IMG/VR virus record: IMGVR_UViG_3300021185_000947
Span: 1-27,994 of that record
Reading direction: 5' to 3' (one strand)
Length of the DNA: 27,994 nucleotides
Source: a virus
The notes under the pieces were generated by a model, which had not been told where the DNA came from, searched no databases, and saw only the letters and a program-made list of their open reading frames with translations. A program made the position numbers and the translations under genes. Positions 588-8,935 of the stretch are shown one piece after another. Each line of letters opens with the position of its first letter. Position 1 is the first letter of the stretch.

Positions 588-1145
588 GTGACCACAAAAT
601 CTACTTATAAGATCATGCTCGATAAGATGGGCGGAACAGACGTATCAGAATACATAGGATTGGCAGGTGAAGTTTTCTGGGATCCTACAGCAGGACAACT
701 CAAACTTTCTGATGGCAGTACTCCAGGCGGAGCAGTTATTTCAATTTCTGGTGCTGCTTTAGGTGTTAGGGAAACAACCTCACCTGTAACAGCAAGTTCT
801 GTTCCTGACGGTGTTAGAGAAGAAATAGACATTACAGGACACAAAAGTTACAACCTATATTCAATCACAACAGATAAAGCGTGTTGGGTAAGATTGTACG
901 ATTCTGCCGCAAGCAGAACTGCTGATGCAAGCAGAACACAAGGCACAGATCCTGCTCCTAGTGCGGGTGTAGTTGCTGAAGCAATCTTTACAGGCAATGG
1001 CGGAACTGTAAACTTCACACCAGGTGTTATTGGTTACAATTTCGAAGATCCTGTAACATCCAATGTCGCAGTAGCTGTAGTCAATAATCACGGATCAACT
1101 CAAAACATAGACATCTCTTTAACCATCCTACAACTAGAAGGTTAA
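588..1145 (+). CDS. Putative virion fibre or decoration protein
   Basis: 185 residues. The N-terminal third contains EVFWDPTAGQLKLSDGSTPGG (about residues 28-48), the short beta-repeat found in many phage fibre and tail-associated proteins, where the text usually reads as time step, display and sample value of a trimeric fibre. The rest (from about residue 55) is rich in Ser, Thr, Val and Gly and reads like a beta-sandwich, without catalytic motifs. It ends 4 bases before the next gene, a subtilisin-like protein, and shares the late promoter at 547-554, so the two are probably made together late in infection. Role as a virion protein is inferred from composition and position. Confidence 0.7.
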   Translation: MTTKSTYKIMLDKMGGTDVSEYIGLAGEVFWDPTAGQLKLSDGSTPGGAVISISGAALGVRETTSPVTASSVPDGVREEIDITGHKSYNLYSITTDKACWVRLYDSAASRTADASRTQGTDPAPSAGVVAEAIFTGNGGTVNFTPGVIGYNFEDPVTSNVAVAVVNNHGSTQNIDISLTILQLEG

Positions 1146-1149
1146 TGCT

Positions 1150-3012
1150 ATGATTGAAGTCGATGTTGTTTTAGTTGACGGAACAGATCAACAAGAATTC
1201 GTTGAGTCGTATTCACAAAATTCTTCTGTTGATGTTGTCAATCTCCTTGCTCTAATTCCTAACGTCATCATCCTAAATGTTGAAGAATCATATTTAGGCA
1301 CTTTAAGAGAAGATATCAGAGTAGAATCAGCACACGAAACAGAAGAGCCAGTAGAGGTATCATTACCGCCAATCGTAACTCAAACAGGTTCTGTTGTGGC
1401 AGAAAGGTCGCTAGCATCATTAGATAATACCGGACCTGGCGCAAATTACATGCCTATGCAATTATATGTCGATACTGACGTTATGCCTGAAAGTGATGTT
1501 AAGATAGGTAATGATCCTGATGATGGTGCGAACTTGTTAGAAAACGTGACCTATTCATCACGATTTTTCGGAAAACATGTTGATATTGTTACATTAGAAG
1601 CAGGAACTCCTGACAACTTATACGATAGTCACCACACAGGTCCTCATCCCGATTTTGCTGACCCAGATACTGGCGTATCAAGATATACGCCTGTAGATTG
1701 GCCAAACTCTCTCCAAGGGCAAACTAATAATGTTGCGACTAGAAACCAAACATTCTTTAGCAGCCATTCAATAGGCGTTTTAAGTGCAGCGGCAGGAACG
1801 CATTGTGGGTTTGCTAAAAAAGCAAATATATTCGCTGCTTATACTGCAAGTAATGCAACAGCACGGGTTGCAGACATAGTCGAATGGCATAATCAAAAAG
1901 AAATTAATCCTGAAACAGGACTTAAAAATCCTACAATTATGATTGCGGAATATCAATACTCTCATCAAAAGCGTAGATATGCTCCCTTAAATTCAATCGA
2001 ATCATTTACCCATAAAGGCGTAACAACAAATAGACCTGAAGGTGGTTGGGGTAATGACCTTACACCTTTTGTCAATGCCAACTTAATTCCATTTAAAGTA
2101 CAAAATCCTCAAACCAACCAATGGGTATGGACAATACCTTGGGGCAGGGGAAATATCGACACAGGACCTAACACAGCACTAAAAACTGCATTAGAAACTG
2201 CATGGGATGCAGGAATAACATGTATTAATCCTGCTGGTAATGGCGGAGAGGTTTACGTGAAAAGAGATGACCCTGAATATACGGGTACGTCTTTTGTTAT
2301 AGGGCACAATGAGGTATACTTTAGATCTAATATTGATGCGAGTTGGCGTATTACGAACTTTAGCGTATTTGCTGGTGGGACAGGTGGCACAACAATTTAC
2401 CCTTTCCAGTCATATGGTCCTCATGGTTGTTTAAAAGACAAAAGTATTGATGTTGCTGCTGGACAGAATTCACAAACATATCCAATTTTAGACGGGTATT
2501 CAAGTCGTGGTCCCGGAATCGATATTGTCGGATTGGGTTCAGATTCGTATTCTTCAGTACCAGGTAGTACCACCACAAGAACATTTAGTGATGGTGATTG
2601 GGGATATTTTGGCGGAACATCTTGTGCTACGCCGACTGTTGTAGGAAAGTTAGCATGCGAAATGGAAAAGTATTATCACTTTACAGGTAAATGGCCTACA
2701 AACAATCAATCAAAAGAAATCTTAATAAATCAAGGAAAGGATAAAGTGTTTGGTGTTGATCCATTTGATTGGAGTAATACTCCTGCCGCTTCAGGGACAT
2801 ATTATCGACCCACAGAAATGGAAGACTCCACGGCAGTTAATACTGTCGATCAGAACTATTCTATAAATGGCACTATTCAATTGAGCAACTTAGCAGGAAC
2901 AACAACTAAAAGAGCATTCTTTAACGCTAAAGGATTCGATAGAGTTTTAAGTCAAGGAAGACGTCCTCAAGAAGGTGCTGTGTATCCTCGTCCTAAGATA
3001 CGAAGATCGTAA
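1150..3012 (+). CDS. Subtilisin-like (S8) protein with altered catalytic Asp
   Basis: 620 residues. Residues 1-60 resemble an inhibitor I9-type prodomain. The subtilase fold follows: the Asp strand VDIVTLEAG (144-152), the His motif SSHSIGVLSAAAG (204-216, His206), the oxyanion Asn in PAGNGG (Asn364) and the Ser motif GTSCATPTVVG (489-499, Ser491). By alignment to the usual V-x-V-x-V-I-D-T-G the catalytic Asp is Glu150, while His, Asn and Ser are kept. There is no signal peptide. The gene follows a fibre-type gene by 4 bases, so a virion-associated or maturation protease is plausible. It may be active with Glu, or a degenerate structural version. A second protein of this type is at 5316-7349. 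Confidence 0.88.
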   Translation: MIEVDVVLVDGTDQQEFVESYSQNSSVDVVNLLALIPNVIILNVEESYLGTLREDIRVESAHETEEPVEVSLPPIVTQTGSVVAERSLASLDNTGPGANYMPMQLYVDTDVMPESDVKIGNDPDDGANLLENVTYSSRFFGKHVDIVTLEAGTPDNLYDSHHTGPHPDFADPDTGVSRYTPVDWPNSLQGQTNNVATRNQTFFSSHSIGVLSAAAGTHCGFAKKANIFAAYTASNATARVADIVEWHNQKEINPETGLKNPTIMIAEYQYSHQKRRYAPLNSIESFTHKGVTTNRPEGGWGNDLTPFVNANLIPFKVQNPQTNQWVWTIPWGRGNIDTGPNTALKTALETAWDAGITCINPAGNGGEVYVKRDDPEYTGTSFVIGHNEVYFRSNIDASWRITNFSVFAGGTGGTTIYPFQSYGPHGCLKDKSIDVAAGQNSQTYPILDGYSSRGPGIDIVGLGSDSYSSVPGSTTTRTFSDGDWGYFGGTSCATPTVVGKLACEMEKYYHFTGKWPTNNQSKEILINQGKDKVFGVDPFDWSNTPAASGTYYRPTEMEDSTAVNTVDQNYSINGTIQLSNLAGTTTKRAFFNAKGFDRVLSQGRRPQEGAVYPRPKIRRS

Positions 3013-3014
3013 AC

Positions 3015-3022
3015 ACATAAAT
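3015..3022 (+). promoter_or_regulatory. Possible late promoter (CATAAATA)
   Basis: One mismatch from TATAAATA, placed 3 bases after the protease stop and 84 bases before the small gene at 3106. That gene otherwise has no visible promoter of its own. Weak evidence, because the motif is short and the region is AT-rich. Confidence 0.35.
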
Positions 3023-3041
3023 AATTTTATAGATTGATCTG

Positions 3042-3075
3042 CTTTAAAGATCCGCATATGTTCATGCGTTAAAAG
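3042..3075 (+). other. Imperfect inverted repeat in leader
   Basis: CGCAT (3053-3057) and ATGCG (3064-3068) enclose a 6-base loop, and CTTTAA and TTAAAAG pair outside them with an unpaired AGATC bulge on one side. No U-run follows, so it is not a standard terminator. It lies in the leader of the gene at 3106 and could be a structural or regulatory RNA element, or chance. Confidence 0.35.
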
Positions 3076-3105
3076 ACTACTTCAATCCTATTCAAGGAGA
3101 AGTAT

Positions 3106-3270
3106 ATGAACAATACGGCAATGTATCGTGGCGCAAGCCAACAAGTAAAAACCTCAAAAGTGAACAGCGAGTCAGAAAAGACCTACCGGGGTGCTGTTTA
3201 CACAAAACTTCCTAAACAATCAAAAGCGAAAACTGCTCACACTTATCGTGGTGTAGCGTTTACTGCTTAG
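3106..3270 (+). CDS. Small YRG-repeat protein, DUF4278-like
   Basis: A 54-residue basic protein with three copies of a YRG motif: MYRGAS (6-11), TYRGAVY (26-32) and TYRGVAF (47-53), separated by lysine-, serine- and glutamine-rich linkers. This YRG spacing is the signature I associate with DUF4278, a short domain known from cyanobacteria and some of their phages; its function is unknown. AAGGAGA (3094-3100) gives a strong ribosome site 5 bases before the ATG. It is the last gene of the plus-strand block and converges on the winged-helix gene at 3317, with a hairpin between them. Confidence 0.8.
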   Translation: MNNTAMYRGASQQVKTSKVNSESEKTYRGAVYTKLPKQSKAKTAHTYRGVAFTA

Positions 3271-3287
3271 TTTCGTTCAGGTAAAAA

Positions 3288-3312
3288 GAGAGGGGGCATT
3301 GCGCCCCCTTTC
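3288..3312 (-). terminator. Terminator between convergent genes
   Basis: GGGGGC (3292-3297) pairs with GCCCCC (3303-3308) around a 5-base loop, and the stem can extend by A-T, G-T, A-T and G-C pairs to 3288/3312. On the minus strand the stem is followed by CTCTTTTTA, a usable U-run, so it best serves the gene at 3317-3586. On the plus strand only CTTTCG follows, making it a weaker terminator for 3106-3270. It is by far the most GC-rich element in this neighbourhood. Confidence 0.75.
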
Positions 3313-3316
3313 GTCA

Positions 3317-3586
3317 TTATGCGCTTGCTAGCGCACGATAACCGGCGGCTATCACTTTACGACTTGGAGTGCTGAGACGATAAAAAGTCTTGGTACGACC
3401 TTTAGTGTCTGTATGCTCATTCGCATATACTGGAAAACCTTTCATTCTTAAAGAACTAACCATCGCACGAGCGTTACCTACGCTGTAGCGTGATTCGATT
3501 TGCTTACCAGTCAAGCCTTTATCTGCTCCGTTAAGTGCTTCTAAAACTCGGGCTTGTTTTGATTCAGGGTTTACATTCAAATTCAT
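3317..3586 (-). CDS. Winged-helix phage protein
   Basis: 89 residues. Residues 8-53 (SKQARVLEALNGADKGLTGKQIESRYSV and following) fit a small winged helix-turn-helix, with GLTGKQIESRYSVGNARAMVSSLRMKG as helix-turn-helix and FPVYANE...FYRLS as the wing. The C-terminal tail PSRKVIAAGYRALAS is typical of a family widespread in tailed phages. A DNA-binding role is likely, and whether it regulates transcription is unknown. TATGGAGATTTTAGTATG gives a GGAG site before the start. Its terminator lies just downstream at 3288-3312. Confidence 0.8.
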   Translation of the reverse strand: MNLNVNPESKQARVLEALNGADKGLTGKQIESRYSVGNARAMVSSLRMKGFPVYANEHTDTKGRTKTFYRLSTPSRKVIAAGYRALASA

Positions 3587-3615
3587 ACTAAAATCTCCAT
3601 AAATTATAAAAAATG

Positions 3616-3795
3616 TTACTTCTGGTACAACTTTCCTATAAGTTCCCAGTCATAACTGACAACACCGGTTACAGGGTCTTTCTCTTTTCCCATCTCGAAT
3701 CCGGTGACTTCTTCGAGATACTTTACTGCCGCTAACTGCTCGGCAAATTCTTTGTTTTCACGATTGTTATTCAAATTAGGTTTAGCAACCCACAT
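3616..3795 (-). CDS. Small hypothetical protein
   Basis: A 59-residue frame starting MWVAKPNLNN and ending ELIGKLYQK. AAGGA lies 8 bases before the ATG. The product is soluble and charged, with a probable helix over residues 13-33 (REFAEQ, LAAVKYLEEV). I do not recognise a family. It lies between the membrane protein at 3805 and the winged-helix gene, in the same direction, so it is probably co-transcribed. Confidence 0.7.
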   Translation of the reverse strand: MWVAKPNLNNNRENKEFAEQLAAVKYLEEVTGFEMGKEKDPVTGVVSYDWELIGKLYQK

Positions 3796-3804
3796 AATTT
3801 ATCC

Positions 3805-4041
3805 TTATAAAATATTTTGTATTATTCCACTAATTAATAAAATAGTCATTACAACATTCAACAATATTAATGCTGTATCTTTCCAAACGATTGCAACCCA
3901 CGCCCACATGATTGTTCCTGCTGTTCCAAAGAACATATCATAAGCATACCATTCGGGTCCCATACTCCTGAAGATGACCGCAGCCATCACACATATAGTT
4001 GCGACCCATTTGATATACCATACAGGCGGATTAGACGCCAT
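3805..4041 (-). CDS. Small three-helix membrane protein
   Basis: 78 residues from MASNPPVWYIKW. Three hydrophobic segments are visible: VATICVMAAVIF, a Trp-rich stretch around FGTAGTIMWAWVAIVW, and ALILLNVVMTILLISGII. Similar proteins of about 80 residues are common in marine T4-like phages, but I know of no function. The start is the ATG at 4039-4041, 11 bases inside the previous gene. Earlier in-frame ATGs exist but would add a non-hydrophobic leader overlapping further, so I prefer this one. Confidence 0.7.
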   Translation of the reverse strand: MASNPPVWYIKWVATICVMAAVIFRSMGPEWYAYDMFFGTAGTIMWAWVAIVWKDTALILLNVVMTILLISGIIQNIL

Positions 4042-4552
4042 GTTCGTCAGCAACATATCCGCTATCATCACATTCGGTTAGTTTAACTTCACAATGAACT
4101 TGCTGGAAACAATCAACATTCTCCCAACCATTCGCTTCAAGGTTTTCATGATAACCATCATCCCATAACTCGGTGACCATATCGATGATTTCTTCTGTTC
4201 GATCTTCATCAAACACACCTTTAGGATCTTGCAGATACCAATCACCTGAACAGCCATCCCACATTTCTAAGAATTCATGGTTAGGGTAGTCATTAAGTTC
4301 GTGAAAGTCCTCATCAACAGGAGGCGCAAATTGCATATCATCAACGCTATCGTAATCCTCACGCTCTTCGCCACGATTCTTTAACCATTCATTGATTTCT
4401 TCTTCTGTTTCAGGGACATTGATAATCCATGATCCTGATCGGAATACTTCTTCGTGAACCACACGATAAGTATGACCGTCAATTGTTTTTTCGAACACAT
4501 CATACTCAGCAACTGATTTTTTGTATTCTGGTTCCATTAAAAAGTGTTTCAT
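4031..4552 (-). CDS. Acidic conserved phage hypothetical protein
   Basis: 173 residues, strongly acidic, with no membrane segment. A stretch near the middle (MWDGCSGDWYL) and the C-terminal ELWDDGYHENLEANGW and DCFQQVHCEVKL look conserved in marine phages, though I cannot name the family. It overlaps the downstream membrane protein by 11 bases and lies 9 bases after the exonuclease gene, so it belongs to the operon driven by the promoter at 5262-5290. Confidence 0.75.
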   Translation of the reverse strand: MKHFLMEPEYKKSVAEYDVFEKTIDGHTYRVVHEEVFRSGSWIINVPETEEEINEWLKNRGEEREDYDSVDDMQFAPPVDEDFHELNDYPNHEFLEMWDGCSGDWYLQDPKGVFDEDRTEEIIDMVTELWDDGYHENLEANGWENVDCFQQVHCEVKLTECDDSGYVADEHGV

Positions 4553-4561
4553 AATATAATC

Positions 4562-5230
4562 CTAAATTGAGTGATTCTTTCTATACAATTCTCGAACATC
4601 TCCTAACTTCTTAAGATGCTTGAATACGGGTTCAACAAACACTTGCGGTTCGTTGTCATCAACAGCAATGATTATCGCTGTTTGTTTAATCGCAATGCCT
4701 GTTTGCTCAAAGAAAGCAGCAGCATAGAATGCACCTTGCATAAAGTAACTTTCGATCCATTCTTTCTTTTTAGGTTTGCGACTTGTTTTGAAGTCGATGA
4801 TTGTGAGTTCGCCATCAAGTTCAGCGATACAATCTACACGACCAGCGATTTGGAATTTATCGCTGTACAAAGGAACTTCTTGTGCCCAGATGTTATTCAC
4901 CCGGGATTCTAATACTGGTTTGATTGTGTTGAAAGTAAAGATGTTGGCAGGCATGAAACCTTTTGACCAATCCTTTACGTTGTTGAGATAGTTCTCGGCG
5001 AGTTCGTGAACAGCAGTTCCACGAGTAGATGCTTGCGCAGATATCTTGTTAGCAGTTTCTTCGCCAACACGCTTTTTCCACGCTTCGATTCCGCCTTTAG
5101 ACAATTCGCCTAAGACGGTTGTGATAGAAGGATATTTATTTCCTTCGGGGGTCACATAAGTCCTTCCAGAAGATAATGTTTCACAATCTAACTCTGGGAG
5201 GTAGTGATCTGTCTTTACGTGATCAAACAT
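4562..5230 (-). CDS. PD-(D/E)XK exonuclease, MGME1-like
   Basis: 222 residues. RGTAVHELAENYL (70-82), an acidic residue in WAQEVPLYS (Glu118 region), AGRVDCIAELDGELTIIDFKTS (129-150, with Asp133, Asp146 and Lys148) and the later aromatic helix QGAFYAAAFF are the ordered motifs of RecB-like single-strand exonucleases that resemble mitochondrial MGME1. Such phage proteins probably trim single-strand DNA ends during replication or recombination. It is the first gene behind the promoter at 5262-5290 and is followed by two unknown genes. The catalytic core looks complete. Substrate polarity cannot be read from sequence. Confidence 0.88.
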   Translation of the reverse strand: MFDHVKTDHYLPELDCETLSSGRTYVTPEGNKYPSITTVLGELSKGGIEAWKKRVGEETANKISAQASTRGTAVHELAENYLNNVKDWSKGFMPANIFTFNTIKPVLESRVNNIWAQEVPLYSDKFQIAGRVDCIAELDGELTIIDFKTSRKPKKKEWIESYFMQGAFYAAAFFEQTGIAIKQTAIIIAVDDNEPQVFVEPVFKHLKKLGDVRELYRKNHSI

Positions 5231-5261
5231 AGTATATCAAGTTTCCTTATTCAATACGTGT

Positions 5262-5290
5262 ATTATACGTTAAAAGAAACCTTTTGTCAA
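5262..5290 (-). promoter_or_regulatory. Early sigma70-type promoter, 17-base spacer class
   Basis: Minus-strand TTGACA (5285-5290), 17-base spacer, TATAAT (5262-5267), with no TG before the -10. The start TTGACAAAAGG is shared with the promoter at 18088-18116. It drives the exonuclease gene at 4562-5230. Confidence 0.9.
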
Positions 5291-5315
5291 CCGTTTTTGA
5301 AAAATAAATTACAAA

Positions 5316-7349
5316 TCATGACAACTTTTCATTTATTTCAGCAATAGTGTAATTTACTTGCGGATTTCTGACTGCTTCAATATCAGGTGTTCCTATAATC
5401 GCCCCGCCATTATTTTGAGATGCTAAATCAGAGGGTATCGTGAAATTGCTGAACTCAGACTGAGGGTGTGTCACAATATTGCCACTATATCCCATTAAGT
5501 GTGTTCCTTTAGCGAAATATGCAAGATCTCCGTAAGGCGAACTTTCGGTCGGGGATATGGGTTCCTTAAACATTGGAGGATCGATGACTGTTGGTACATT
5601 GTTTGCATCAGAAGTCCCTTCTGTTGTTGCAATATCTCTTATGTACTTTCGCATATCAGAAACAGATGTTGTCGGGTAAGCTTGTAATATCTGAGCAACC
5701 ATTCCTCCGACCTGAGGACATGCAAAGGATGTTCCTGTTGCTATATACGTATAGGACGTTCCTAATGAAGCAAGATTAAGATATACATTTTCACCTGCTG
5801 CACAAGTATCTACTCGATCACCTTTATTAGAAAAAGATGCTATGATTTCTTTATATATGGTTGTTGCAGTTCCTCCTGAATATTGTCGGTCAAAGTCACG
5901 ATAATAATACAGCGTTTCAGTGTTGGTATTATTATAAATATTCGAAGAAAGTGCGCCAACAACTATTGTATCGGGCCCAACATGCCATCCTGGGCGATTA
6001 TAGAAATAAAGTTTATGTAGTTCCTCTGGTGAAGACGTGAGAGGGTCAATATATGCATTGTTATAATCAGGGTTGGTCGGCAAACACAATTTTGCACCAG
6101 CGTTTCCGGCGGCAACAATATGATGCACTCCTGCATCTGTCATATCTTTAACCGGTTCCATATATACAGCATATTCAGCATTATATGTCGCATCGTCTGA
6201 AGCCATGTCAATGAATTCGGCTTGAGCTTCACCAACTTCATCATTAAAACTATAGTCAACCTCAGCACCCTGTTCAAATTCATAAGGTGCATTTGCTTGA
6301 CTCGGCAAATCAATATATCCTGATCTCGGGCAAAGATATTTTCGACCAAATGCACCTGATGATATATCTCCGGTTGATCCGAACGATATTTCTTGTACAG
6401 GAATTTGTGCTCCTCCGCCAGGTGCTAATTTAAAGTATAATCTATTTCTGAAAAGCAATCCTCTTGCTTGATCTGTAGTATCCAATTTTTTACTGAATGA
6501 TGAAATAACAACAGTCGGACGGTCGGCGTCAGCAGTTCCAGCTTTTGCTTCATGAAACAATCTAGCACAATCATAAAAATATTCAAAAGGATCTTTTCCT
6601 GCATTATTCATTTGATTTCTGGGAAACACATAAATTTTTGACCCAGTTGCCCAACCATAAGTATTACTACATGCTATATATGCAACTGCTTCAGAATGTT
6701 GTATACTAGAGTCTGATGCCCCTGATCTTCCGAACAATGTCGAGTTATATTCAACCGTAGGCAAAGCGCTCATTCCTGGTAATGTGTTCCACTGGAATGA
6801 TTCTAATCTAGTCACCCCATTCGTATAAAATTCAGTATCTATACGTTCCAATATTGTCCCTAAAGGCATTATAATATCAACACCCGTACCATCTAGGTCT
6901 GTAGTAGTCGTTCCGTCATTATATGCAGGATGTGTGTAAGTACCTGATTGATCGGTATTTGAATCATCTACAGCAATATTATTTTCCTCTACCCCTCCGC
7001 CGGATTGAGGAGTAACATTGTCTGTAATACCGCCCTGGTGTCTTAATAGACCCCAATTACCTGCGTATGTTGTAGAATATCCGCCAAGCAAATGATGTTT
7101 TCTCATTCTACGATAATTTACTGTTTTTGTTAATGTATCGTCATCTTCTCCTAATGACGATATTGGCGCAGGGGCATTAACAAATTTAACACTATCGTGA
7201 TCTCGCAAGGTTTGCGCTTGGGCATCCGTACATTCTGCGATAAAATATGTTGACCTAAAGGATATCTCGTCAACGACCGAAGTCACCGATGAATACAAGT
7301 CAGATTGGTTTACGCCATCTTGGAGAACAATGTGATAGTTATTTGTCAT
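5316..7349 (-). CDS. Second subtilisin-like (S8) protein with altered Asp
   Basis: 677 residues. Residues 5-60 look like an I9-type prodomain (YHIVLQDGV through DAQAQTLRDHDSVKFVNAP). The subtilase core has the His motif IQHSEAVAYIACS (216-228, His218), the oxyanion Asn in VAAGNAG (Asn416) and the Ser motif GTSFACPQVGG (539-549, Ser541). The Asp strand reads GVDIIMPLGT (156-165), placing Leu163 where Asp belongs; nearby acids are Glu168 and Asp171. The protein is not a recent copy of the one at 1150-3012, since the two share only the motifs. It sits next to an S74 fibre gene and a PAAR gene, behind a likely late promoter. It may be inactive, or use another acid. Confidence 0.87.
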   Translation of the reverse strand: MTNNYHIVLQDGVNQSDLYSSVTSVVDEISFRSTYFIAECTDAQAQTLRDHDSVKFVNAPAPISSLGEDDDTLTKTVNYRRMRKHHLLGGYSTTYAGNWGLLRHQGGITDNVTPQSGGGVEENNIAVDDSNTDQSGTYTHPAYNDGTTTTDLDGTGVDIIMPLGTILERIDTEFYTNGVTRLESFQWNTLPGMSALPTVEYNSTLFGRSGASDSSIQHSEAVAYIACSNTYGWATGSKIYVFPRNQMNNAGKDPFEYFYDCARLFHEAKAGTADADRPTVVISSFSKKLDTTDQARGLLFRNRLYFKLAPGGGAQIPVQEISFGSTGDISSGAFGRKYLCPRSGYIDLPSQANAPYEFEQGAEVDYSFNDEVGEAQAEFIDMASDDATYNAEYAVYMEPVKDMTDAGVHHIVAAGNAGAKLCLPTNPDYNNAYIDPLTSSPEELHKLYFYNRPGWHVGPDTIVVGALSSNIYNNTNTETLYYYRDFDRQYSGGTATTIYKEIIASFSNKGDRVDTCAAGENVYLNLASLGTSYTYIATGTSFACPQVGGMVAQILQAYPTTSVSDMRKYIRDIATTEGTSDANNVPTVIDPPMFKEPISPTESSPYGDLAYFAKGTHLMGYSGNIVTHPQSEFSNFTIPSDLASQNNGGAIIGTPDIEAVRNPQVNYTIAEINEKLS

Positions 7350-8638: not shown

Positions 8639-8935
8639 TTAATTTGCCCACACTTTACTTGAACCTGTTGCTGCTGCATTTCCGGCCCAAGAACCATGAC
8701 CAGAAGTCGCATCGCCTTTTCTATGAACTCCTTTGCCTTCAGCAAATACTTTACTCGACTTTCCAGATACTGGATCGCCACAACCTGTACTTCCTCCGTC
8801 TACAACAACAAGATTACTCTCGGCATACACTTTGCCTTGCGCAGCATTTGTGTAATTTGTTTTGTGAAACGGGTTAGGAGTAGGACTTGCGTGTCCTATG
8901 TGCGAATCAGCACCTTGTCTAACTACTTCTGGCAT
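8639..8935 (-). CDS. PAAR-type spike-tip protein, gp5.4-like
   Basis: 98 residues with PAAR-type repeats: GADSHIGH near the N-terminus, the VYAESNLVVVDGG segment, GCGDPVSGKSSKVFAEG, and VHRKGDATSGHGSW near the C-terminus. Candidate metal ligands are the histidines in HIGH and SGHG and the cysteine in GCGD. PAAR proteins cap the central spike of contractile tails and coordinate a metal at the tip; in T4 this is gp5.4. The stop of PhoH overlaps this start by 1 base. Its place in a structural block supports the call. Confidence 0.85.
   Translation of the reverse strand: MPEVVRQGADSHIGHASPTPNPFHKTNYTNAAQGKVYAESNLVVVDGGSTGCGDPVSGKSSKVFAEGKGVHRKGDATSGHGSWAGNAAATGSSKVWAN

Follow-up and report, generated by a model that had tools for sequence, protein, structure and literature searches.

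The 27,994-base window analysed here, positions 1 to 27,994 of IMG/VR virus record IMGVR_UViG_3300021185_000947, comes from a T4-like marine phage, the ribonucleotide reductase of which shares 75% identity with the enzyme of phage C48C1 (Kyanoviridae) and 65% with those of Methylophilales phages. It encodes two proteins, P1 (620 amino acids, plus strand) and P2 (677 amino acids, minus strand), that an earlier reading of the sequence (the original prediction) had described as S8 subtilase-like proteins without the canonical catalytic Asp. Both open reading frames are real at the coordinates listed in Table 1, both score above the PF00082 cut-off of 21.8 bits, and Foldseek matches both to subtilisins with probability 1.00, consistent with a subtilase fold. 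The His, the oxyanion Asn and the Ser of Peptidase S8 are present in P1 and P2, as originally described, and the catalytic Asp expected where the first core strand ends is replaced by Glu150 in P1 and by Leu163 in P2. The hidden Markov model (HMM) alignment to PF00082 proposed with the prediction confirms family membership, but it does not reach the acid site: the match spans only the Asn/Ser part of each protein, and the Asp region is therefore left without HMM annotation. P1 also matches the tail fiber family phrog_15006 over most of its length (residues 176-615).

The position of the missing acid is supported by profile alignments and by structural models. In hhalign comparisons with Asp-type relatives, the VDIVTLE150 motif of the P1 clade pairs with VDVVIVD (E=2.9e-31), and VDIIMPL163 of the P2 clade pairs with that same motif (E=6.7e-61). 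The wider P1 motif, GKHVDIVTLE150, stands gap-free opposite GKNVDVVIVD, and that of P2 reads GTGVDIIMPL163. In the AlphaFold2 models (mean predicted local distance difference test score, pLDDT, of 75.0 for P1 and 68.5 for P2) Glu150 and Leu163 lie at the end of equivalent strands (145-151 and 158-163), the helix that follows carries the His (His206 in P1, His218 in P2) and the Ser (Ser491 in P1, Ser541 in P2) opens a later helix, in agreement with hhalign and with the residues initially assigned by eye. One MAFFT alignment set Asp128/129 of P2 under the Asp column, as would be expected if the true catalytic Asp lay elsewhere and the alignment were shifted by a segment. Such a shift is hardly credible: hhalign and the family alignments favour Leu163, the P1 motif aligns without gaps, and Asp128/129 fall within an insert that is missing in close relatives and predicted to be disordered (pLDDT <50). 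Sequencing error was also rejected as the cause of the swap, since the S-CAM1 isolates and a large number of independent contigs agree. The prediction had named a local misalignment, with homologues carrying the usual Asp, as an outcome that would overturn it; the usual Asp does occur in 60 relatives, yet the P1 and P2 clades share their swaps, and it is this conservation among relatives that rules out misalignment and sequencing error.

Scans for close relatives with the single P1 or P2 sequences returned no matches, and relatives were reached through alignments. About 50 relatives of P1 were recovered in IMG/VR, with Glu at the acid position in all 49 that could be read, close kin of S-CAM1 among them. 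A homologue 55% identical to P1, in a sibling 114-kb contig (L186), has Glu as well. The same Glu is found in a relative encoded by the cultured cyanophage S-CAM1 (39.6% identity over 98% of the length). The P2 clade, likewise assembled through alignments, comprises 20 non-redundant members with Leu, Ile, Val, Thr, Ala or Gly, aliphatic or small residues throughout, at this position; no P2-clade relatives were found in the bacterial and archaeal genomes searched. Among the three P2-clade loci inspected closely, genes of podovirus type occur in L067 and L068, examples being an internal virion protein or a T7-like fibre and terminase. Some phages encode two P2-type genes, as in L068 (1250-3106 and 5189-6925), where one has Gly and the other Ile at the acid site, and in L167, L169 and L170.

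The family set contains 100 non-redundant proteins, of which 98 were counted; L143, with an unaligned acid region, and L062, on a contig that ends before the Ser, were left out. The acid position is Asp in 60 proteins, Glu in 18 and Leu, Ile, Val, Thr, Ala or Gly in 20, and none of the 98 deviates at His, Asn or Ser. Glu appears in three lineages: the P1/S-CAM1 group (11 proteins), the first genes of tandem pairs (6) and L138 (1). The tandem S8 pairs (L070, L071, L072, L074, L077 and L176) combine a first gene with Glu and an adjoining second gene of the Asp type. The P2 clade (support 99), the P1 clade (100) and the tandem Glu clade (100) each form one group in the tree, and the three fall together opposite the Asp types plus L138 (99). 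Because of this grouping, a single Asp-to-Glu change followed by loss of the Glu is a possible history, and it may have been accompanied by an independent change in L138 (5401-7176), where Glu (VDVVSPE) apparently arose among the Asp-type branches. The branch of P1 is long, and its placement is possibly a long-branch artefact.

Within the P2 clade, His, Asn and Ser are among only 53 invariant columns of 564 well-filled ones, with codons that vary for His (CAT 11, CAC 9), Asn (AAT 16, AAC 4) and Ser (TCA 9, TCT 7, TCC 4); in the P1 clade, the window and L186 use TCT for the Ser, and the nine further members checked use AGT. His, Asn and Ser thus seem to be held by selection despite synonymous codon change. 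The Thr-Ser and Ala-Gly-Asn segments of the nucleophile/oxyanion half are retained, and a structural role may partly account for the persistence of Ser and Asn. The stronger hint that chemistry is retained comes from the His, since the residues next to it change (HGTH to HAEA). In the P1 clade, Ser125 is replaced by Glu (11/11), Asn123 by Ile, Gly127 by Gln, His67 by Gly and Met222 by Cys; in the P2 clade, Asn123 becomes Val, Ile or Phe, Ser125 becomes Ala in 13/20, His67 mostly Ala, and Met222 Phe or Tyr. One P2-clade member, L159 (7989-9728), reads AAAN, in place of AAGN, as its oxyanion motif, and its Ser lies in GTSYSSP.

Taken together, these patterns place P1 and P2 in a large marine-phage family of S8 subtilases encoded in fibre/tail blocks, in which the acid has changed and the His/Asn/Ser side has been kept. 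That dozens of marine phages share the swaps with the other catalytic residues in place suggests altered, rather than simply dead, enzymes. The reading we favour, to which we assign a probability of roughly 0.47, is that P1 represents a Glu-His-Ser variant and that P2 represents an acid-less Ser-His-oxyanion variant, each fibre- or tail-associated and with low or single-turnover activity. In P1, Glu150 would take over from Asp32, and the site around it is remodelled, with Ser125 changed to Glu267, Asn123 to Ile and Met222 to Cys. Cleavage would probably be slow or happen a single time, its most plausible target being either the enzyme's own prodomain or the fibre-like protein of the gene directly upstream, and P1 would remain attached to the fibre or baseplate afterwards. 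In P2, the acid-less site would most likely sustain very low or single-turnover activity, or the same half-site would serve as a binding module. Several points weigh against this reading. Activity is a prediction for both proteins, their virion location is deduced from family names and the order of genes, structural needs could explain why Gly-Thr-Ser and Ala-Gly-Asn are retained, and the loss of Ser125 and Gly127 in P1 (to Glu and Gln), and of Asn123 and often Ser125 (Ala in 13/20) in the P2 clade, suggests an altered or closed cleft. We infer virion attachment, residual catalysis and the substrates of P1 and P2; a role in host-surface degradation or maturation, as put forward in the original prediction, is possible. 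A bolder version, in which these are working subtilases acting as fibre-tip enzymes, with a Ser-His-Glu triad in the P1 clade and, in the P2 clade, a Ser-His site that either lacks its acid or receives it from the helix of the His (Glu220), seems rather unlikely.

Loss or alteration of the acid and replacement of the cleft residues Ser125 and Gly127 would also fit P1 and P2 being pseudo-proteases that carry out no catalysis and preserve the subtilase and prodomain fold for a structural or receptor-binding role in the tail. In Foldseek searches, structures of PCSK9 are also among the matches of P2, PCSK9 being a protease that acts mainly as a binder. Natural precedents exist in CspA and CspC, subtilase pseudo-proteases that act as regulators, have lost two triad residues and, in the case of CspC, carry an unprocessed prodomain (PMC6636752). 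P1 and P2 share with them the subtilase and prodomain fold and an incomplete triad, but only the acid position has changed. Moreover, His, Asn and Ser are invariant across 20 diverged P2-clade and 11 P1-clade members despite synonymous change, and the His has no obvious structural reason to persist while its neighbours change. We regard pseudo-proteases as the principal competing reading, a real but less probable possibility. Engineered D32A and D32G subtilisins show that removal of the acid yields conditional, anion-rescued enzymes that are not simply dead (PMC7935941). Like P2, these variants keep Ser, His and Asn without the acid; their small residue, however, leaves room for an anion, and the Leu or Ile of P2 would fill the site.

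For P2, the original prediction had considered Glu168 or Asp171 as the new acid, and neither is retained. Glu168 varies among relatives. Asp171 falls at the His of an HPEF motif, beyond the acid strand, is absent from the positions at least 85% acidic in the P2 clade, and lies where L174, L175 and L181 read DNAGY, DNSEY and GNTEY. The clade-specific acid is instead Glu220, two residues past His218, and it could in principle have replaced Asp32 by migration of the acid onto the His helix. Glu occupies this position throughout the P2 clade except in L172, which has Lys, and in 0/60 Asp-type proteins, where Thr, Ser and other residues are found; AlphaFold2 places His218 and Glu220 on one helix (214-227). 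Sedolisins (S53), subtilase-fold enzymes with a changed triad, have their acid on the helix of the base, a precedent for its movement (PMC11593635). They use an Asp at position i+4, however, which is Val in the P1 clade and Val or Cys in the P2 clade, and a residue at i+2 of an alpha helix normally faces away; furthermore, sedolisins replace the His by Glu and the oxyanion Asn by Asp, both of which P1 and P2 keep. Since the P2 clade has a single origin, the correlation may reflect a single event, and acid migration appears improbable.

Compared with subtilisin and other S8A members of PF00082, P1 and P2 share the fold, the His, oxyanion Asn and Ser, and an N-terminal prodomain-like domain; they differ in the substitution of Asp32, in long inserts and, in P1, in the replacement of Ser125. 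The I9-like prodomain originally proposed stands as a fold, with a β-α-β-β-α-β order in both AlphaFold2 models and unprocessed pro-subtilisins as the top Foldseek matches of both proteins, but not as a Pfam call, inhibitor I9 giving no match in P1 or P2. The closest known counterpart of P1, SXBG_00005 of S-CAM1 (YP_007672920.1), is a full-length relative with Glu at the Asp site and the same upstream partner gene. It is annotated as a tail fiber protein, with no mention of a protease, and phrog_15006, which P1 matches, has the same length; SXBG_00005 exceeds P1 by 131 residues and has a large insert that follows the acid strand. Asp-type subtilases of cyanophages S-H38, S-CREM1, S-WAM2, S-H9-1, ACG-2014e/i and P-SSM2 belong to the same family and share the neighbourhood and prodomain-like N-terminus of P1, but keep the canonical Asp and the Ser125 and His67 equivalents, at ~20-27% identity to P1. 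Literature searches brought up no relevant work on subtilases of phages or on subtilases with an Asp-to-Glu change. With one natural clade in which Glu is conserved, represented in a cultured phage, and another that lacks the acid but has invariant His, Asn and Ser, the part played by Asp32 can be tested in nature. The two clades also suggest that the tail-fibre blocks of marine phages contain a widespread and unstudied protease-like module, now annotated as tail fiber or hypothetical.

Table 1. Features of the two subtilase genes and their surroundings (window positions unless a locus is named; residue equivalents in subtilisin numbering; E, strand; H, helix).
Feature	Position	Strand	Basis
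P1, S8 subtilase, Glu at Asp32 position	1150..3012	+	PF00082 28.4 bits; phrog_15006 E=2.3e-114
P1 prodomain-like region, residues 2-63	1153..1338	+	AlphaFold2 E2-8 H14-22 E27-31 E39-44 H46-54 E58-63
P1 Glu150 codon, Asp32 position	1597..1599	+	alignments
P1 His206 codon, His64 position	1765..1767	+	alignments
P1 Glu267 codon, Ser125 position	1948..1950	+	Glu 11/11 P1 clade, Ser 60/60 Asp-type
P1 Asn364 codon, oxyanion Asn155 position	2239..2241	+	alignments
P1 Ser491 codon, Ser221 position	2620..2622	+	TCT
P2, S8 subtilase, Leu at Asp32 position	5316..7349	-	PF00082 47.0 bits; P2 clade
P2 prodomain-like region, residues 2-58	7176..7346	-	AlphaFold2 E2-9 H15-21 E24-27 E35-41 H42-49 E54-58, pLDDT 84-92
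P2 Leu163 codon, Asp32 position	6861..6863	-	alignments
P2 His218 codon	6696..6698	-	alignments
P2 Glu220 codon, His+2	6690..6692	-	Glu 19/20 P2 clade
P2 Asn416 codon, oxyanion Asn	6102..6104	-	alignments
P2 Ser541 codon	5727..5729	-	alignments
P2 C-terminal NYTIAEINEKLS motif	5319..5354	-	common to many P2-clade members and some unrelated neighbouring virion proteins
Shared C-terminal motif occurrences	window 5319-5354; L066 4001-6001, 6001-7749; L068 450-1250; L151 911-2032		
Fibre-like partner of P1, 185 amino acids, ~125-residue C-terminal domain	588..1145	+	hmmsearch; phrog_9627/15343
Tail-fibre protein, S74 intramolecular chaperone, directly upstream of P2	7383..8417	-	PF13884 65.7 bits
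PAAR-like tail tip protein	8639..8935	-	phrog_281 1.9e-9; PF05488 17.1 bits, below its cut-off

The fibre and PAAR genes said to adjoin the subtilases are confirmed, the former by its S74 chaperone domain and the latter through its PHROG match (Table 1). In hmmsearch scans, the ~125-residue domain of the P1 partner lies directly upstream of the S8 gene in 48/48 P1-clade loci with room for it, and directly upstream of 19 other S8 genes, two of which are S-CAM1 records of the P1 clade; its hosts are S-CAM1-type and several other cyanophage-type phages. The Asp-type cyanophages named above all carry it upstream except P-SSM2, the upstream protein of which was left out of the domain model. This domain, which has no Pfam name, occurs in 46 phage records, mostly of cyanophages. 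The partner protein upstream of the Asp-type gene of S-H38 bears a T4 gp9/10 N-terminal domain, and the gene pair is therefore linked to the baseplate or fibres.

The suggestion that P1 and P2 form one maturation or host-surface-degrading system has been set aside for now. The two proteins belong to different clades and have different gene partners, and in L186 P1 is found together with its partner and the two genes that come next downstream, but the 114 kb contain a single S8 gene and no P2. P1 and P2 therefore give the impression of separate modules, although part of L186 may be missing. A 197-kb S-CAM1-type record also has one S8 gene, the P1 relative. Finally, a motif resembling NYT.AEINTKL ends P2, many of its relatives and unrelated neighbouring fibre-like proteins, possibly as a shared attachment or coiled-coil tag.

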